From contig DWWS01000013.1 in NCBI GenBank assembly GCA_019119595.1, forward strand, positions 146,756 to 210,755: DNA of 64,000 nucleotides, in the 5' to 3' direction. Below the pieces are notes generated by a model. It was not told the origin of the DNA. It searched no databases and worked only from the letters and a program-made list of their open reading frames with translations. This document shows positions 51,991-61,623 of the stretch, piece after piece. Numbering within the stretch: the stretch's first letter is position 1; each line of letters starts with the position of its first letter. This DNA is from Candidatus Eisenbergiella merdavium (GTDB lineage: Bacteria; Bacillota; Clostridia; Lachnospirales; Lachnospiraceae). Position numbers and translations under genes: made by a program.

Positions 51991-52710
51991 ATGGATACGC
52001 AGAGAGCGCTTGCAGAACGATATCTTCCGATTTTTATGCTGGATGAAAAAGAGCCCTTCGCCATGAAGGCCATTGGCTATACGGTTTTTACCTGCGACCT
52101 GCGCAGCGATTCCTTCCCGAAGCGCGTAATCAGCGCGGACTGGGAGAGGACGGCGTGCGTGATCGAATATGAGCTCTGGTTCGACTATGACATCCAGCAT
52201 CTCTATGAGCTGGAGCATGTGTGGGTCTACGTGGCAAAGGATGGTTCCGTAGAAAAGGTGGAGGGAAGCTTCCACGGAAAATATCTGAATCAGGTGGATC
52301 TGGATACGGGAATCGTGCCGCTTGATGAGAGCGGACGGATATGTCTGTACCTGCAGCCCGGCAAGCACGCCATCCTTCCCGATCCCCGCCTGGTGCGCCT
52401 GGTTCCCCAGTGGCGGGCAAGCTGTGCGCAACTTGCCGGGGCGGACGGGGTGCCGCTCCCGGAGATGTTCCAGGACAGGATGGCGGTTCCGGATGAGAGG
52501 ACTCAGGAGCTGGTGCACCGTTACATCAGAAAGCGCTTCTCCTTTGAGCCGTCTCTGCGCTTTCGGCCCTTTTTTCCGGAAAGATCGCTTCCGGAGAAAG
52601 AGCTGCTCCTTCCCTGGGAAAAGCTGAAGGAAAGCGTGCCGGGACGGCTGGAAGCAGAGCTTGCCAGAATACGGGAGGAGGAAGAGGATGCTGAGGGGGT
52701 ATCTTCCTGA
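51991..52710 (+). CDS. Uncharacterised protein, same-strand partner of the preceding gene
   Basis: MDTQRALAERYLPIFMLDEKEPFAMKAIGYTVFTCDLRSDSFPKRVISADWERTACVIEYELWFDYDIQHLYELEHVWVYV. Confidence 0.55.
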   Translation: MDTQRALAERYLPIFMLDEKEPFAMKAIGYTVFTCDLRSDSFPKRVISADWERTACVIEYELWFDYDIQHLYELEHVWVYVAKDGSVEKVEGSFHGKYLNQVDLDTGIVPLDESGRICLYLQPGKHAILPDPRLVRLVPQWRASCAQLAGADGVPLPEMFQDRMAVPDERTQELVHRYIRKRFSFEPSLRFRPFFPERSLPEKELLLPWEKLKESVPGRLEAELARIREEEEDAEGVSS

Positions 52711-52809
52711 ATTTAAAATAGAAATCTTCTGCGTGCTGTTTTTTTCTGCTTTTGCGTCCCTGCCCGGTCTGAGCCGGATTCTGCACAAATTTTGTGCGAT
52801 CCTTATTCT

Positions 52810-53184
52810 TTATCTGCCCAGCAGCTTTGCCGCCCTGTCATATTCCTCCACGGACGCGCCGATCCCCTCGCAGGCGGTCTTCAGATCCACATGGAAGCTT
52901 TTCATCGCGGCCTCCGCGCTTTTTACCAGACGCGCCGCGTCTCCCAAAAGACTGCCCTCCTTTCGGCCCTCCTTCCTGCCGGCTTTCCTTCCCTCCGCTC
53001 TTCCGGCCTTTCTTCCTTTCCGCAGAGCCTGTTCTTCAATCGCTTCGCTCAGATTACACATTTCCTTCAGCTCCTTTCTGATCGTCGTTTCCAGCTCCAT
53101 TCCATAGACGCCGGAAAGGATCCGTTCCACATGTTCATCATACTGTGTCTTCGCTCCGGCGGCCTCCAAGGCCTCATAAAGCAT
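52810..53184 (-). pseudogene. Rpn-family gene copy A with in-frame deletion of the nuclease domain
   Basis: MLYEALEAAGAKTQYDEHVER|ILSGVYGMELETTIRKELKEMCNLSEAIEEQALRKGRKAGRAEGRK...SFHVDLKTACEGIGASVEEYDRAAKLLGR; same ends as copy B, middle missing, still open reading frame. Confidence 0.8.
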
Positions 53185-53359
53185 GGTTTTCTGTTTTATT
53201 TTCCTCCTTCTGTATACAGGACGGGAATGAAAACAGAATGCAGCACATCTTTCCTGTTCCTGCCTGTATTCGATATGAAATGGGTGTCTGGCAGAAACTG
53301 CCGAAAGAATGTGCTGACGCACAATTTGAGATGGGACAGGGGCGGTTTGAGAATACCGT

Positions 53360-53412
53360 CCCATGTATCATGATCTGATTATAGAGATGAGCGGATTTCC
53401 TGTCAATATGAA
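53360..53412 (-). promoter_or_regulatory. Consensus SigA promoter of Rpn copy A
   Basis: Minus strand TTGACA-ggaaatccgctcatctc-TATAAT (17-bp spacer). Confidence 0.75.
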
Positions 53413-53524
53413 AATCAGGCTCAGGGCGGGGAGCCGTAACAATTCAGTCTTTGACCAAACTGTTACGACAGCCCGTTTATGATTGACTCAGTTTTAGATG
53501 AGACACAGGCAGAGACCAGCAGGC

Positions 53525-55261
53525 CTATGGAAGCCGGGACAGACGCCCGTTTTCATCCAGCCGAAGGACGAAGCTGCAGGAGGCGTTTAAGCGCTCTTTA
53601 TGCGAGATCAGGAAAATGATCTTTCCCTTTGCCGCTTCCCTGCGCAGGGTATCCAGGATTCTGTCCTCTGAGGCTTCATCCAGAGCGCTGGTGGATTCGT
53701 CAAGAATGAGCACGCTTTTGTCGGAAAGAAAAGCGCGGGCCAGAGCGATCCGCTGTTTCTGGCCGCCGGAAAGATTTCTTCCGTTTTCCAGCAGAATGGA
53801 AGAGTAGCCGTCCTCTCTGGATTCTATAAAGGAGGCGGCATCGGCAAGGCGGGCGGCACGCAGAATATCCGTTGTAGTCTGTTCCATGGGGGCTGCTCCG
53901 CCCAGTATATTTTCTCTGATGGACATATGGAACAGATGAGGAAACTGCGGCACATAGGCGGTAAAACGGCTGACGGCTTCCCGGGAAAGCAGAGAGGCGG
54001 CAAGGCCGTCATAAAGGATTTCTCCCCCGGTGGGAGAACGAAGACCGGCAAGAAGTCTTCCCAGGGTGCTTTTCCCCGCTCCGGAGGGCCCGGTGATGGC
54101 AACGATGTCGCCGCTTTCAGCAGTAAAGCTCACATCCCTCAGAACCGGCTCGGTGTCCGGTCCATAGCGGAAGTTCAGATGGCGGCATTCGATCCGGGAA
54201 ATGGTCTGGGGAAATGACCTCCTGGAACAGCCTTCCTCCTGCGGAATACGTTCAGGGGCAAGAAGATCCAGAATATCGTAAATTCGCTCCAAGCTGACCG
54301 CATATCTGTTAAGAGAGGAGAAGAAATCCTTCAGATTGCTGAACATATAGGAAATGCCGTCCTGTACGGTCAGAAAGGCCATAACTGTGCCAAGATCGAC
54401 AATACCGTAAAAATATAGGACACATCCGGCGGCAAGCGCGCCGAGCAGGTTGACGGAGCCGGTCAGTTCGCTTACCGCGTTCATCAGAGCGATGCGATCC
54501 TCCTGTTTCGCTCTGCTTCGTGCGATCTCTCTGTGAATGCCGGAGTATTTTTGATACATGACAGAACGGAGCGAAAGCATCCGGACACTTTTCAGACAGT
54601 TCAGCAGGGAAAGGAACAATCCGGTGCCTTTGGCGCGATCTGCCTGGATTTTTTCACCAAGCTCTCTGATCCTTCCGGAGAGTCTGCCCAGGCAGAGAAT
54701 TTCAAGCACGGCGAGGATCAGAATGATGAAGGCGAGCTGCCAGCAGAGAAGAAGCATGAGCAGGATGGAGCCGCCTCCGTAGAAGACCCCCAGGAAAAAA
54801 CGGTGGAGCGACCAGGAATACAGTTCGCCGATACTGTCCATATCCTGATTCATCCTTGCGATCAGATCTCCGTTTTTAAAGCCTTCCCGGTCTTCCGGCG
54901 TAAGGAGCATAAGCTTTTCGGCAAAACGCCTTTTCAGGCGCGCCATAAAGAGCGCAGTCTGCTGTTCTTTCTGATATTCTGCTATGGAGTTCAGGAAAAA
55001 AGTGAGGAGGAACACAAGGACACAGTAGAAAACAACCTCTTTCATATAGGAAGGATTTTCAAATTCCACCGCGTTGACCAGGCGCTTTTCTGCCAGACTC
55101 ATGAAAATCTGAGCCAGGGGGAAGGCTGCCGAATCCCAGAGAAGGGCGGTAAAATAGCGCAGCAGGCTCCTGCGGCCAAAAAAGCGGTCATGAGGGGCTG
55201 TCCCGGTTGATATCGCCTCTCCCGGCACTTTGAAAAGTAAGGAAAACAGTCTTCGGTTCAT
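53525..55261 (-). CDS. ABC exporter, fused permease/ATPase
   Basis: GPSGAGKSTLGRLLAG, LSGGQKQRIALARAFLSDKSVLILDESTSALDEAS. Confidence 0.92.
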   Translation of the reverse strand: MNRRLFSLLFKVPGEAISTGTAPHDRFFGRRSLLRYFTALLWDSAAFPLAQIFMSLAEKRLVNAVEFENPSYMKEVVFYCVLVFLLTFFLNSIAEYQKEQQTALFMARLKRRFAEKLMLLTPEDREGFKNGDLIARMNQDMDSIGELYSWSLHRFFLGVFYGGGSILLMLLLCWQLAFIILILAVLEILCLGRLSGRIRELGEKIQADRAKGTGLFLSLLNCLKSVRMLSLRSVMYQKYSGIHREIARSRAKQEDRIALMNAVSELTGSVNLLGALAAGCVLYFYGIVDLGTVMAFLTVQDGISYMFSNLKDFFSSLNRYAVSLERIYDILDLLAPERIPQEEGCSRRSFPQTISRIECRHLNFRYGPDTEPVLRDVSFTAESGDIVAITGPSGAGKSTLGRLLAGLRSPTGGEILYDGLAASLLSREAVSRFTAYVPQFPHLFHMSIRENILGGAAPMEQTTTDILRAARLADAASFIESREDGYSSILLENGRNLSGGQKQRIALARAFLSDKSVLILDESTSALDEASEDRILDTLRREAAKGKIIFLISHKERLNASCSFVLRLDENGRLSRLP

Positions 55262-55289
55262 CGGATCCTCCCTTCTGGAATGGCATCGG

Positions 55290-56921
55290 TTATCTGGAAA
55301 GCTGCAGCACCCTGTCACAGGCCCGGAGCAGGGCGGGGCGGTGGGATATGATGAGAACGGTTTTTCCCGCCTGCCGCAGCGTATGGATGCTTTCTATGAG
55401 GAGCCGTTCCATTTCCTCATCCAGTGAGGCGGAGGGCTCGTCAAAAAGATAGAGCAGTGCGTCCTGGAGAAAGGCTCTTGCCAGATTCAGCCGCTGGTAC
55501 TGGCCGCCTGACCATTCCGCTCCGTTCGCCTGCAGCATGGTATCGTATTGTTTTGGAAGTTGACGGATGAAGCCGTCCAGACCGGACAGCCGTGCGGCTG
55601 CTTCGATTTCCGAAAGGGTCGCCCCTGGCCGGGAAAAACTGATGTTTTCCCTGACCGTTCCCGGAAAGATCTGATTTTCCTGAAATACGCAGGAAATCTG
55701 TTTTCTGAGCTCCGAAAGATTCCATTGGGAAACGGATCTTCCGAATAACAGCAGACTGCCGGACGGAGGCTCACAGAAGCCGCAGAGCAGGCGGAGAAGG
55801 GTGGTCTTTCCCACACCGCTTTCTCCGGCGATCCCGATGCACTCACCGGATGAAACCTGCAGAGAGAGTCCCTCAGGGATCCCGGGAAGGGGCAGATTCC
55901 GGCAGACGATCGGCAAGCTGGCGTCGAGAAGGCCGCAGGCCCCGTCCGTTCGTTCCTCTGGCAGGAGAAACAGCTCGTCCAGACGCCTCATAGATTTTTC
56001 CGTTTCCCGAAGCTCATTCAACGAGCTGAACAGGTCGACGACGGGAGCGTTGATCTGCCCGATGAGCTGCGTATAGGCAAAAAGAAGGGAAACGGAAATC
56101 TGACCGTGGAGCGCCAGAACCCCGCCGAGCAGAAAGGCGAGGATACCCGGCACATAGGTAACGGACATGATCAGGGAAAGGGAAAGACAGCTGTTCCGGA
56201 AATAGCTTTTCTGGTTGAACAGAAGTGAGCGGAGGAGACGTTCCAGCTTTTGCAGCATCACTTCTGTCATCTGATCGGAAAAAATGGTTTCCGCTCCGTT
56301 GACAATGTCGCAGGAAACGTCCGTATATCCGGTTTGAATCTCCCGCCTCTTTTCGTAAATCCTTCCTGCCCGTTTAGAGAAGCCGTTCAGAATAAGCGCA
56401 AAGAAAGGAACCGGGAAAAAGACGCCGAGACTGAGGAGAGGGCTGTAATGGAACAGATAGAGGAAGCCGCAGACGGACAGGAGCGGATTTAGAAGCAGGG
56501 TCAGCGTTCCGGAGCGGAAAAAGCCGGAAATCTTGTCAATATCTCCGTCATACCGGCTGAGCAGCTCTCCGCCGGAAAGCTTTTCCAGACGATCCGGCCA
56601 TGCCTGGAGAATGTGGCGGAGCAGATGATCGCGGAGAATGCAGCCCGCTTTGGTCTCAAGACGGCCGGAAACGGTCGCGGAAAGTCCGCTGCGCAGCAGA
56701 GTGGCGAGACTTGTGGACGCAAACAAAAGAAAAGCCATACCCGAGCGGGAACGGTTATCGCTCAGAACCGCGTCAATGAGCTGCTGGACCGCGTTGACCT
56801 GAAGAAGGCTGAGCGCGACGGATACGGGGGACAGCAGCAGAAGAAGCAGAAAATGGAACCGAAGCTGCTTTAGATATCTGCCGACCCATTTCAGAACATA
56901 AAGGAAAGAACCTGATTTCAT
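55290..56921 (-). CDS. ABC exporter, fused permease/ATPase
   Basis: GESGVGKTTLLRLLCG, WSGGQYQRLNLARAFLQDALLYLFDEPSASLDEE; adjacent and co-directional with the partner. Confidence 0.92.
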   Translation of the reverse strand: MKSGSFLYVLKWVGRYLKQLRFHFLLLLLLSPVSVALSLLQVNAVQQLIDAVLSDNRSRSGMAFLLFASTSLATLLRSGLSATVSGRLETKAGCILRDHLLRHILQAWPDRLEKLSGGELLSRYDGDIDKISGFFRSGTLTLLLNPLLSVCGFLYLFHYSPLLSLGVFFPVPFFALILNGFSKRAGRIYEKRREIQTGYTDVSCDIVNGAETIFSDQMTEVMLQKLERLLRSLLFNQKSYFRNSCLSLSLIMSVTYVPGILAFLLGGVLALHGQISVSLLFAYTQLIGQINAPVVDLFSSLNELRETEKSMRRLDELFLLPEERTDGACGLLDASLPIVCRNLPLPGIPEGLSLQVSSGECIGIAGESGVGKTTLLRLLCGFCEPPSGSLLLFGRSVSQWNLSELRKQISCVFQENQIFPGTVRENISFSRPGATLSEIEAAARLSGLDGFIRQLPKQYDTMLQANGAEWSGGQYQRLNLARAFLQDALLYLFDEPSASLDEEMERLLIESIHTLRQAGKTVLIISHRPALLRACDRVLQLSR

Positions 56922-57135
56922 GTAAATTTCTCCCTGCCTGATAAAATGATTGAACGAAAAGCTGCTTTCAGTATGAACGAAGCGGAAAAAGGAGACAAGA
57001 ACAGGGAATGATTATAAAAAAAGAGGAACCCGCCGTGTAAAAATGAAAAAAGAAACGGCCGGCCTTTCGGGAGCTGATCTCTGGTGTCAGATCACCCGGC
57101 GGGCGGCCATTTCCGTATTCTGTCTTTCTGTAGAT

Positions 57136-57393
57136 TCAGCGATATACTATTTTTTTGATCGCACTGACGGAAAGATGATACTGCTCTGCAAGCTCAGAAA
57201 CCGGTGTGCCGTTTTGGTGCCGTTCCCGGATACTGCGATTCCGTTCCAGATAATAGCTCCGGGAACCGTTTCCCGTTCCCCAGTCCTTTCTGGGAGCGGC
57301 CTTTGGAATATACAGAAGCTTTCCTTCTGTATATTCCTGCACCTCCTGAAGAAGCTTTGCAGGCAGCAGCTCTGCTGCGTTTTGATATTTCAT
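57136..57393 (-). CDS. CD3324-family-like small HTH protein
   Basis: MKYQNAAELLPAKLLQEVQEYTEGKLLYIPKAAPRKDWGTGNGSRSYYLERNRSIRERHQNGTPVSELAEQYHLSVSAIKKIVYR. Confidence 0.7.
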   Translation of the reverse strand: MKYQNAAELLPAKLLQEVQEYTEGKLLYIPKAAPRKDWGTGNGSRSYYLERNRSIRERHQNGTPVSELAEQYHLSVSAIKKIVYR

Positions 57394-57749
57394 TTTCTGC
57401 CTCTTTTGCTTTTCGGTACTGCGGGAGAAATTTCCACAGCGCCATGTGCCCTGTGGCCGACAGTCTCTCGGTCGTCCGGGGCCCCGCCGGTATCAGCCGT
57501 GCGGAAGCGGCAGATCATACAGTGTATTTACCCCATACAGACCCCTGTATGTCTGCCGTTCTGCATGGGGGAAGAGGACATGGCAAGTCCGTCTCTGAAT
57601 AAAAGATACTGTTTTCGTTTCACGCCGGGCTCACCTCCTTTTTCCCAATTATACGGCTTGCCGCAGAGGCTGTCAACGCTATGACCTCCCGGAATCTGTG
57701 TCGCTTGCCTGCCGGTAAACTGTGCCCCTTTCCCACTGAACCGGATTTG

Positions 57750-57790
57750 CATATTGACAGAAAATCCGCTCAGCCCTATAATCAGATCAT
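57750..57790 (+). promoter_or_regulatory. Consensus SigA promoter of Rpn copy B
   Basis: TTGACA-gaaaatccgctcagccc-TATAAT (17-bp spacer), homologous to copy A's promoter. Confidence 0.8.
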
Positions 57791-57958
57791 AACAAAGAGG
57801 CGGTTTTCTCAAATTGCCTCTGTCTGATCTCAAGCAGTGCGTCAGCACATTCTTTCGGCAGTTTCTGCCAGGTACCCACTCATATCGAATACAGGCAGGA
57901 ACAGGAAAGACGGACCACATTCTGTTTTTATTTCCGTCCTGTATACAGAAGGAGGAAA

Positions 57959-59065
57959 ATGAAACAGAAAACCATGCTTTATGAAACCCTGGAGAGTGCC
58001 GGGACAAAGGCACAGTACGATGAACATGTGAAACGGCTTCTTGGCTTCCGGCCGGTGATCTCCCAGATCCTGATCCGCACCATGACGGAATATGCAGGCC
58101 GGACGGCAAAGGAGGCCGCGGCCTGGATCGAACCGGAGGCGCTGTCTTTCGCGCGGGAGGGGGAAGCGGACGGCTCGGACAGGCCCCTTGTCGGAAAAAC
58201 GCAGGAGAGCCGGTGGCCGGGAGCGGGAAGCACCGTTTATGACCTGCGCTTTCAGGTGCAGGTGCCAAAGCAAAAGGTGCCAGGGCGGCAGGCGGCAAAA
58301 AGGCGTGCGTCAAAGCCGGACAAAGAAGGCTCCATTGTTCTTGTGAACCTGGAGGCCCAGAAGAAATTTTATCAGAAATACAGGCTTGTCACCCGTGGGA
58401 TCTTTTATGGGGCGAAGATGCTCTGCGAGCAGTACGGAAGGCAGTTTGGCCATTCCAACTACCAGAAGCTGAAGAAGGTATACAGCATCTGGATCTGCAT
58501 GAACGCGCCCAACTATATCGGAAACGCGATGGTGGAGTACAGGCTGGCGAAGCACGACCGGATCGGAAGCGTGCCGGAGCAGGAGAAAAATTACGACAAG
58601 CTGTCGGTGATCCTCATCTGCCTGAATACGAAGAAAGGGCTGGGAGAAGAGGGAGGCATCCACCATTTTTTGAACGTGCTGCTGTCGCCTTCCATGGACA
58701 TGGCTGAAAAGGAAAGGATCCTTTCCGGCGTGTACGGGATGGAACTGGAAACGACGATCAGAAAGGAGCTGAAGGAAATGTGTAATCTGAGCGAAGCCAT
58801 AGAGGAACAGGCTCTGCAGAGAGGCAGAAGGGCCGGAAGAGAGGAAGGCAGAAAAGCTGGCAGGCAGGAGGGCCGAAGAGAAGGCAGAAAAGAAGGCAGA
58901 AAAGAAGGCCGAAGAGAGGGCAGCCTTTTGGGAGACGCGGCGCGGCTGGTAAAAAGCGCTGAGGCCGCGATGAAAAGCTTCCATGTGGATTTGAAGACCG
59001 CCTGTGAGGGAATCGGCGCGTCCGTGGAGGAATATGACAGGGCGGCGAAGCTTTTGAGGGGGTGA
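57959..59065 (+). CDS. Rpn-family PD-(D/E)XK nuclease / putative transposase, full-length copy B
   Basis: VYDLRFQVQ...GSIVLVNLEAQKKFYQKYRLVTRGIFYGAKML (D...ExQ core) plus C-terminal GRKEGRKEG repeats. Confidence 0.82.
   Translation: MKQKTMLYETLESAGTKAQYDEHVKRLLGFRPVISQILIRTMTEYAGRTAKEAAAWIEPEALSFAREGEADGSDRPLVGKTQESRWPGAGSTVYDLRFQVQVPKQKVPGRQAAKRRASKPDKEGSIVLVNLEAQKKFYQKYRLVTRGIFYGAKMLCEQYGRQFGHSNYQKLKKVYSIWICMNAPNYIGNAMVEYRLAKHDRIGSVPEQEKNYDKLSVILICLNTKKGLGEEGGIHHFLNVLLSPSMDMAEKERILSGVYGMELETTIRKELKEMCNLSEAIEEQALQRGRRAGREEGRKAGRQEGRREGRKEGRKEGRREGSLLGDAARLVKSAEAAMKSFHVDLKTACEGIGASVEEYDRAAKLLRG
58778..59065 (+). CDS. Candidate internal in-frame start giving an RpnS-like C-terminal protein
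   Basis: AAGGAG at 58763-58768, 9 nt before ATG 58778 (MCNLSEAIEEQALQRGRR...), in frame with copy B. Confidence 0.4.
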   Translation: MCNLSEAIEEQALQRGRRAGREEGRKAGRQEGRREGRKEGRKEGRREGSLLGDAARLVKSAEAAMKSFHVDLKTACEGIGASVEEYDRAAKLLRG

Positions 59066-59128
59066 AGCTTGTTCGGGGCTGTTTTCATGCCTGCGGTTTT
59101 ACAAATTCTGCATTTCAATAAAAGTCGC

Positions 59129-59216
59129 TTGAAAAAATCGCCATTTTAAGCTGAAACTCCATTGAAAAAGTTTACATTATAATCAAAAACTCCCTTGAAA
59201 AAGTTGTATGTTTCCG
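59129..59216 (+). repeat. Three 33-bp-phased TTGAAAAA repeats upstream of the DUF4143 ATPase
   Basis: TTGAAAAA at 59129, 59162 and 59195; the first two 33-mers match at 24/33 positions by hand alignment. Confidence 0.75.
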
Positions 59217-59223
59217 TTATGCT
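59195..59223 (+). promoter_or_regulatory. Putative promoter of the DUF4143 ATPase
   Basis: TTGAAA-N17-TATGCT; the -35 is the third repeat. Confidence 0.5.
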
Positions 59224-59256
59224 GTAATGGAACAGAACAGGGGAGGCGAAGCTGTC

Positions 59257-60576
59257 ATGCTGAAAAGGAAAATTGAACAGAAGCTGATCGACTGGAAAAA
59301 TACAGAGAACCGCAAGCCATTGATGATCAAGGGCTGCAGACAGTGCGGAAAGACATTTTCTGTCCTTGACTTTGCAAAAAAGAACTACAAAAATGTCGTG
59401 TACCTGAACTTTTTTGAAAACCCGGATTATGCTTCTGTATTTTCCGGTTCCCTGGAAGTAGACACGGTCGTGATGATGCTGTCCGCCCTGCTGGGCAGCG
59501 AAGCGGTATTTGAGAGCGGCAGGACAGTCCTGGTTCTGGATGAGATCCAGGAGTGCCCGGAGGCCCGGACCGCTCTGAAATTTTTCCGTATGGATGGACG
59601 TTATGATGTGATAGGAACCGGCTCTCTGTTGGGGGTGAAGGGATATGGAAAAGAACCGAAATCTGTTCCGGTCGGTTCGGAGACGGTGATTGATATGTAC
59701 CCTCTGGATTTTGAGGAATTTTTGTGGGCCAATGGGATTGCTGAGCCTGTGATCGAGATGTTGGATCAGTGCCTGCAGAATGAAACGCCGGTCCCAGAGG
59801 CTTTGCACAATCGCATGAAACAGCTGCTCCTGCAATATGCGGTTGTCGGCGGTATGCCGGACGCCGTGCAGACTTTTGTGAATACGAAGCAGATGGACGA
59901 GGTGCTTCAGATCCAGCGCGATATTGTCCGTTCCTATGAGGATGATATGGTAAAGTATGCGGAGAGGAAGGACAAATCACGGATCAGGGAGTGCTTTCAG
60001 TCTATCCCGAAGCAGCTCAGTAAGGAAAACAAGAAATTCCAATACGCTGTTGTCAAAAAAGGTTCTACCGCATCAAAATACGCCGGGAGCCTGCAGTGGA
60101 TCGAGGACGCCGGTATCATTGTCCGCTGCTACAATCTAAGCACTACCGAACTGCCTTTAGATGGAAACGCCGAAGAAGATGTATTCAAGGTGTATATGCG
60201 TGACTGTGGCCTTTTTGTCAGTATGCTGGAGGATGGTACACAGTACGATATCCTGAGGGGAAACCTGTATGGCTATAAAGGGGCGATTTTTGAAAACCTG
60301 ATTGCCGATATTTTCGGCAAGATGGGACGAAAACTCTATTATTTTCATAAAGATAGCGGGCTGGAGATAGACTTTGTGATCCGTTATAAAGGGGAATGCA
60401 CTTTGGTGGAGGTCAAGGCATCCACAGGAAATACGAAAAGTACCAGGACGATCCTGCGCCATCCTGAGAAATACCATGTCAGTCATGCGATCAAGCTGGG
60501 GGATTACAATGTGGGACGCACGGAACAGCTTCTCACGCTTCCCCTGTATATGGCCTTCCTGTTAAAAGAGCTGTGA
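59257..60576 (+). CDS. AAA_14/DUF4143 family ATPase
   Basis: MIKGCRQCGKTFSVLDFAKKNYKNVVYLNFFENP...VLVLDEIQECPEARTALKFF...GLEIDFVIRYKGECTLVEVKAS; SD GGGGAGG. Confidence 0.9.
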   Translation: MLKRKIEQKLIDWKNTENRKPLMIKGCRQCGKTFSVLDFAKKNYKNVVYLNFFENPDYASVFSGSLEVDTVVMMLSALLGSEAVFESGRTVLVLDEIQECPEARTALKFFRMDGRYDVIGTGSLLGVKGYGKEPKSVPVGSETVIDMYPLDFEEFLWANGIAEPVIEMLDQCLQNETPVPEALHNRMKQLLLQYAVVGGMPDAVQTFVNTKQMDEVLQIQRDIVRSYEDDMVKYAERKDKSRIRECFQSIPKQLSKENKKFQYAVVKKGSTASKYAGSLQWIEDAGIIVRCYNLSTTELPLDGNAEEDVFKVYMRDCGLFVSMLEDGTQYDILRGNLYGYKGAIFENLIADIFGKMGRKLYYFHKDSGLEIDFVIRYKGECTLVEVKASTGNTKSTRTILRHPEKYHVSHAIKLGDYNVGRTEQLLTLPLYMAFLLKEL

Positions 60577-60578
60577 TT

Positions 60579-60712
60579 GCCAGACATCCATCTCATATCA
60601 AATACGGCAGGGACTGGAAGGACAGGCGGCATTCTGTTTTGGGAGATGCGGCGCGCCTGGTAAAAAGTGCTGAGGCCGCGATGAAAAGCTTCCAGCAGAA
60701 TTTGTACAGAAT
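60579..60712 (+). pseudogene. Rpn-family remnant copy C
   Basis: TGCCAGACATCCATCTCATATCAAATACGGCAGG...GCATTCTGTTTTGGGAGATGCGGCGCGCCTGGTAAAAAGTGCTGAGGCCGCGATGAAAAGCTTCCA: 5' flank joined to the LGDAARLVKSAEAAMKSF coding segment. Confidence 0.8.
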
Positions 60713-60916
60713 CTGCATGATAAAGGAAAAGAAAAGACAGGCGAAAAAACAGAAACTGAGGTATAATGGAAACAGACCCGGAGGGCGTCTGCTCTTCTGC
60801 TGAAAACAGAGTGCAGAGCGTACATAAGGCCGGGACAGGGAAAAGAAGGCATGAGCATCAGGGCTCACGCCGGGATCAAAGAGCCGCCCGCGGCGGCGAA
60901 ACAGGAGGAAAAGCCA

Positions 60917-61558
60917 ATGAAAATCGCATTGATCAATGAAAACAGCCAGGCAGCGAAGAATGAGCTGGTGGAGAGCGTTCTGAAAAAGGTGGTTGAGCCC
61001 ATGGGACATGAGGTTGTCAACTACGGCATGTACAGCGCGGAGGATGAAAACCAGCTGACCTATGTACAGAACGGAATCCTGGCGGCCATTCTGCTGAATT
61101 CCGGAGCGGCTGACTATGTGGTTACGGGCTGCGGCACCGGTGAGGGAGCCATGCTTGCCTGCAATGCATTCCCCGGCGTGCTGTGCGGACATATCGTAGA
61201 TCCTTCCGACGCCTATATGTTTGCCCAGATCAACGACGGCAACGCCATCGCCCTTCCTTTTGCAAAGGGCTTCGGCTGGGGTGCGGAGCTGAACCTTCAG
61301 TACATCTTTGAAAAGCTGTTTGAGGGAGAAAGCGGACAGGGCTATCCCAAGGAGAGAGTGATCCCCGAGCAGCGCAACAAGAAGATCCTGGATGAGGTGA
61401 AAAAGATCACGCATACCGATCTGGTTACGATCCTGAAGAGCCTGGATAAGGATCTGGTAAAGGGAGCCATCAGCGGAAAGCATTTCCAGGAGTATTTCTT
61501 CGCATCCTGCAAGAATGAAGAGATCGCAGCCTGCGTGAAGGAACTGCTTGAGGCGTAA
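60917..61558 (+). CDS. RpiB/LacA/LacB family sugar-phosphate isomerase
   Basis: MKIALINENSQAAKNELVESVLKKV...AADYVVTGCGTGEGAMLACNAFPGVLCGHI. Confidence 0.9.
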   Translation: MKIALINENSQAAKNELVESVLKKVVEPMGHEVVNYGMYSAEDENQLTYVQNGILAAILLNSGAADYVVTGCGTGEGAMLACNAFPGVLCGHIVDPSDAYMFAQINDGNAIALPFAKGFGWGAELNLQYIFEKLFEGESGQGYPKERVIPEQRNKKILDEVKKITHTDLVTILKSLDKDLVKGAISGKHFQEYFFASCKNEEIAACVKELLEA

Positions 61559-61623
61559 GAGGACGGCTTGATCAGAGAAAAGAAAGAAAGACAAAAAACA
61601 GAAAGACAAAAAGACAGAAAAAC

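Follow-up and report, generated by a model that had tools for sequence, protein, structure and literature searches.

A divergent Rpn-type nuclease gene of Candidatus Eisenbergiella merdavium with a candidate internal antitoxin start, and its nuclease-deleted copy

Gene B and its internal start

The analyzed window, 64,000 nucleotides (nt) of contig DWWS01000013.1 of Candidatus Eisenbergiella merdavium (assembly GCA_019119595.1, positions 146,756 to 210,755), contains a gene, here called B, for a divergent Rpn-type PD-(D/E)XK nuclease, together with a nuclease-deleted copy (A) and a remnant (C). Within B, an internal Shine-Dalgarno (SD) sequence and in-frame ATG are predicted to give a 95-amino acid (aa) C-terminal protein. 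This product resembles the short partner of the intragenic RpnL/RpnS toxin-antitoxin genes of E. coli (RpnA-E and RpnP2; COG5464, PF04754; Zhong et al. 2023, PMC10327210). A preliminary description of this DNA had proposed such an internal start, and the proposal was borne out: the AAGGAG motif is followed, after a 9-nt spacer, by an ATG that lies 273 codons from the main start ((58778-57959)/3) and opens a C-terminal product reading MCNLSEAIEE...AAKLLRG. The positions of all features are given in Table 1.

The internal start was compared across 104 homologues, 4 from the same genome and 100 from other Lachnospiraceae genomes. The codon aligned with 58778 was a start codon in every homologue (99 ATG, 3 GTG and 2 TTG), and an SD-like motif lay 5' of it in all 104, with an aligned spacing of 8-10 nt in 89. 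For each gene, the energy of pairing with the anti-SD sequence was compared with that of synonymous recodings of the same peptide, drawn from the gene's own codon usage. Mean energy at the internal start was -9.5 kcal/mol in the real genes versus -5.8 kcal/mol in the shuffles. In SD strength, 97% of the genes exceeded their own shuffle median, as did all 47 clusters formed at 50% identity and all 21 formed at 40% identity. As a control, 978 further in-frame ATGs within these genes showed no excess (-2.4 versus -2.4 kcal/mol; mean percentile, 0.49). Glutamate and lysine codons ended in G in 46 of 48 cases at codon -5 (21.5 expected) and in 69 of 72 cases at codon -4 (29.2 expected), whereas the G-ending share at codons -2 and -1 matched expectation. 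Collectively, the SD excess over shuffles, the flat control ATGs and the G-ending skew at the SD codons show selection for an internal ribosome-binding site (RBS), and this nucleotide-level selection acts on both the internal SD and its start codon throughout the family.

An additional homologue set from named genomes gave the same picture, with an SD in every member bearing the MCNLS-type motif. On other contigs of the same genome, eight Rpn paralogues of the PF04754 type (L001-L008) have a strong SD (-11.4 to -12.1) before the first codon of an MC or VC pair, and the V of the VC pair is always encoded by GTG. Judged from these signals, candidate gene-within-gene Rpn loci number at least 12 in the genome.

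Table 1. Positions of the rpn copies and their signals in the window
Feature	Position	Strand	Remarks
Gene B	57959..59065	+	full-length divergent Rpn-type PD-(D/E)XK nuclease gene (RpnL-like), 368 aa
B promoter	57754..57782	+	TTGACA-17-TATAAT, 12/12 consensus; matching element in A at 53406-53378
B leader elements	57837..57902	+	conserved; I, GTGC-GTCA-GCAC, 57837-57848; II, GGCAGTTTCTGCC, 57857-57869; III, GGCAGGAAC, 57894-57902
B main SD	57949..57955	+	AAGGAGG, for the full-length protein
B internal SD	58763..58768	+	AAGGAG
B internal open reading frame (ORF)	58778..59065	+	95 aa, RpnS-like: MCNLS head, 4-aa repeat helix, predicted C-terminal helical bundle
B repeat tract	58817..58924	+	4-aa repeats, 36 aa
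Copy A	52810..53209	-	nuclease-deleted; main SD 53209-53203; main start ATA 53199-53197
A promoter	53406-53378	-	perfect, same element as B
A internal SD	53071..53076	-	AAGGAG
A RpnS-like ORF	52810..53061	-	83 aa; repeat tract 24 aa
Remnant C	60578..60694	+	leader piece joined to C-terminal-domain piece; lacks a start and any intact domain

The B protein and its proposed control

RpnA of E. coli needs residues D11, D63, E82, Q84 and R94 (PMC5350276). The candidate catalytic residues of B (D21, D95, E132, Q134 and R146), matched to those of RpnA by motif order rather than by structural superposition, were invariant in 49 homologues. An AlphaFold2 model of B (predicted local distance difference test score, 83) has a nuclease core with the strand/helix order of PD-(D/E)XK enzymes. 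In this model, a long helix (265-314) spans M274 and some of the repeats, and the C-terminal helices (319-341, 345-351 and 356-367) are predicted with high confidence. The model of the 95-aa product alone was poor in the repeats. Repeat tracts begin 13 residues after the internal Met, the distance used to recognize Rpn proteins being 8-20 residues, and vary among close paralogues in 4-aa steps (16 aa in L010, 24 aa in A and 36 aa in B). Matches of the tract to FliH in NCBIfam lay far under the cut-offs and were dismissed as those of a low-complexity charged helix. When the C-terminal profile of the B family was aligned with RpnAS, hhalign returned 83% with an E value of 9e-6.

Several results weigh against placing B among the RpnL/RpnS genes. 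B scored 12.8 bits against TIGR01784, the NCBIfam Rpn family (curated cut-off, 52.1), and 19.4 bits against PF12784 PDDEXK_2 (gathering cut-off, 27.4). For RpnAS (PDB 7TH0), a sequence profile gave an E value of only 0.12, and Foldseek returned nothing significant. The stretch from 57783 to 59195 showed no internal promoter, so that the short product would derive from the full-length mRNA. Among 49 relatives, TIGR01784 weakly matched 28 (best E value, 5.8e-9) and PF12784 matched 37 at E <= 0.1 (best, 6.8e-8). PADLOC reported nothing relevant for A or B. The earlier idea that the internal start yields an RpnS-like product is supported by the family-wide selection on SD and start codon, the conserved catalytic residues and the RpnS-like architecture. 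This kind of toxin-antitoxin gene, RpnL/RpnS, is already known from published work on E. coli, and we conclude that B is very probably a divergent example of it.

In the Eisenbergiella-type rpn genes, a conserved, partly covarying leader RNA separates the promoter from the main start (57754-57955 in B and 53406-53203 in A). Compensatory changes in its hairpin I (GTGC-N4-GCAC), taken directly from the individual leader sequences, include GTGC/GCAC, GCGC/GCGC and GTGT/ACAC, and the element GGCAGTTTCTGCC is invariant among these genes. Farther along, GGCAGGAAC is able to pair with GTTCCTGCC, which immediately precedes the main SD; this III-IV pairing is weaker in B (GTCCTG) than it is in L152 and similar relatives. 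The leader motif occurs four times in the genome, each time before an rpn copy, and Rfam gave no match in the B gene or its leader. The leader may set the ratio of RpnL to RpnS.

We propose that a toxic full-length Rpn-type nuclease would be initiated at 57959 and that ribosomes would also initiate at the internal SD and ATG (58763/58778), yielding an RpnS-like copy of the C-terminal region. Through its repeat-bearing helix, the short product would pair with the matching domain of the full-length nuclease and keep it inactive, and phage attack or stress would free the nuclease. Initiation, toxicity, inhibition and phage defense in B are modeled on the E. coli Rpn work, by which analogy the short protein probably keeps the B nuclease in check. 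We consider the gene-within-gene model for B as a whole, with A as a nuclease-deleted derivative, to be likely.

Two other accounts of the short product were weighed. The SD and ATG could arise merely because the K-E and M-C residues are conserved, with no internal initiation. M-C-N-L is indeed a conserved protein motif, and the SD of B is stronger than just 80% of its synonymous recodings, about one in five of which do as well, a result that is not significant by itself. However, the residues that encode the internal SD vary among homologues (KEL, GEE, SEV, GRL and RRI), and the SD falls in codon phases 0, 1 and 2 in 76, 11 and 17 genes, respectively, so that it is encoded by different amino acids. 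Synonymous choice is strongly skewed at the SD positions only, and the five non-Met residues at the internal start are Val or Leu, encoded by GTG or TTG every time. The PF04754-type paralogues carry an SD in an unrelated peptide context as well. Such a by-product is hardly credible. The short protein might instead be a structural or regulatory partner, either an assembly subunit or a DNA-binding autorepressor acting through a helix-turn-helix (HTH)-like tail, rather than a simple inhibitor. Cas11d is a precedent for an assembly subunit, for Cas10d, and several C-terminal tails of the B family weakly match HTH or sigma-region-4 profiles. RpnAS is also dimeric and binds RpnAL in a 2:2 complex, but RpnS of E. 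coli blocks the toxicity of RpnL together with SOS induction and DNA cleavage (PMC10327210), and we judge such a partner role quite unlikely.

Nuclease-less copies and the history of the locus

Copy A had been described as retaining the internal SD and ATG of B after deletion of the nuclease core, and this holds: AAGGAG (53076-53071) is followed by a 9-nt spacer and an ATG (53061). About 28 N-terminal codons are joined to the position corresponding to B residue 252, B residues ~28-251 being missing. The C-terminal domain is intact and identical to that of B across 42 codons, with the frame open to the normal stop. The preliminary description had overlooked that the main start of A has changed from ATG to ATA and that its repeat tract is 36 nt (12 aa, three repeats) shorter than that of B (24 versus 36 aa). 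Because the main start is lost, the internal pair is the sole well-placed SD/start pair found in A.

Nuclease-less copies were also found elsewhere. A scan of 250 genomes, in which the nuclease was not required, yielded 20 sites, 2 of them cut by contig ends; 5 of the other 18 lacked the nuclease, and the short ORF was intact in 3 of these 5 (A, L266 and L278). In L217, the 5' region and start are fused 8 codons ahead of the internal ATG. In L193 (2154-3455), a second SD-ATG-RpnS copy follows in tandem, within ~60 nt of the stop of a full-length rpn gene, and has one repeat more than that gene. Downstream RpnS copies and fusions of the N terminus to RpnS were already described in E. coli by Zhong et al. 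(PMC10327210). A pattern scan of IMG/VR for phage-borne stand-alone RpnS gave 12 chance matches and no rpn remnant; two viral contigs encode a relative that has an internal SD of its own.

Sequences flanking A (52300-52686) and C (60700-61590) match the flanks of a single rpn locus in the sister species L149, L218 and L229, and the C-side flank also matches L222 and L219. Thus, 52300-61590 represents the expansion of an rpn locus that was single in the ancestor, as it still is in sister species, and now reads A, ABC transporter genes, B, AAA_14 and C. The AAA_14/DUF4143 ATPase gene (Pfam) lies directly 3' of B at 59227-60576, and its full length is matched by the PADLOC candidate defense model PDC-S01 (E value, 1e-159). 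Just 5' of B, an 85-aa ORF on the minus strand (57136-57393) ends in an HTH-like stretch, VSELAEQYHLSVSAIKKIVYR.

The preliminary suggestion that A is a stand-alone antitoxin inhibiting full-length B has weak support and is, on balance, unlikely. The internal SD/ATG and the C-terminal domain survive in A along with the promoter and leader, and nuclease-less copies with an intact RpnS recur in other genomes (L217, L229, L193, L202, L266 and L278). However, adding one repeat to either partner of E. coli RpnC abolished inhibition, which was restored when both carried the repeat (PMC10327210). Given this result in RpnC, the 12-aa difference between the tracts of A and B makes inhibition of B by A doubtful; the stand-alone copies L193 and L202 are also unequal in length to their full-length neighbors. 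It is more probable that A is an orphan or a relic than that it inhibits B. The chance that it is a decaying pseudogene without function lies, in our estimate, a little short of even. The loss of its main start, its place in an expanded locus that also contains the dead remnant C, and the broken state of other mini-copies (L220, L274 and L279) speak for decay. Against decay stand the open frame and a ratio of 5 synonymous to 1 nonsynonymous change on the A branch (neutral expectation, ~1:2.6), a count that depends on the repeat alignment and comprises too few substitutions to tell selection from relic. Selection might also maintain mini-rpn genes like A as stand-alone antitoxins whose repeat number fits a different RpnL, one that is absent or one that is incoming. 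We think this unlikely; if it were true, a private antitoxin set would protect the strain from mobile rpn toxins as an anti-addiction repertoire. Finally, A, B and C could be copies of a transposon, with deleted derivatives resembling miniature inverted-repeat transposable elements. Units running from promoter to stop are repeated, copies are internally deleted, and the B family is annotated as putative transposase. However, homology between A and B ends at the stop and fades 5' of the promoter without a common sharp end, and the agreement of the A and C flanks with the lone rpn locus in sister species indicates that the locus expanded and decayed in place. Zhong et al. (PMC10327210) found neither terminal repeats nor target duplications for rpn, and a transposon origin is very unlikely.

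Significance and relation to known systems

Evidence for gene-within-gene antitoxins has so far come from a small number of E. coli systems and from a single cloned gene of C. difficile. The present comparison adds an internal RBS that is under selection throughout a divergent Lachnospiraceae branch scarcely recognized by current family models. Such family-wide selection makes it probable that B-type genes function as toxin-antitoxin units in common gut bacteria, not as transposases. Further, the recurrence of nuclease-less copies with other repeat lengths makes the specificity between RpnS and RpnL directly testable. A search for literature on RpnS/RpnL later than Zhong et al. 2023 found nothing apart from a review.

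B shares with E. coli RpnL/RpnS a PD-(D/E)XK nuclease joined to a C-terminal domain (in B a predicted helical bundle), an internal AAGGAG SD with a start codon heading the repeat helix, and 4-aa repeats in variable number. Stand-alone RpnS copies and N-terminus/RpnS fusions are common to E. coli Rpn and the B family. In E. coli RpnA, the sequence at M244 is AAGGAG-6-ATG, at a place equivalent to the internal start of B, and mutation showed that this site drives RpnS (PMC10327210). The spacing between SD and ATG is 9 nt in B, as opposed to 6 nt in RpnA. Unlike the E. coli proteins, B falls far below the TIGR01784 cut-off and under that of PF12784, and it has the MCNLS head motif, a 36-aa repeat tract and a conserved structured leader before the full-length start. 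An internal promoter is present in the E. coli rpn genes, whereas none was found in B.

The PF04754 paralogues L001-L008 resemble B in that an internal SD precedes an MC or VC codon (ATG or GTG), which is followed in these paralogues by charged-Gly repeats and then an HTH-like tail. Unlike B, they belong to a separate, PF04754-recognized sequence group and differ from it in N-terminal and nuclease sequence. The rpn gene of C. difficile is, like B, a Gram-positive rpn gene; its RpnS was made in E. coli and was lost upon mutation of the RBS or start codon (Zhong et al., PMC10327210).
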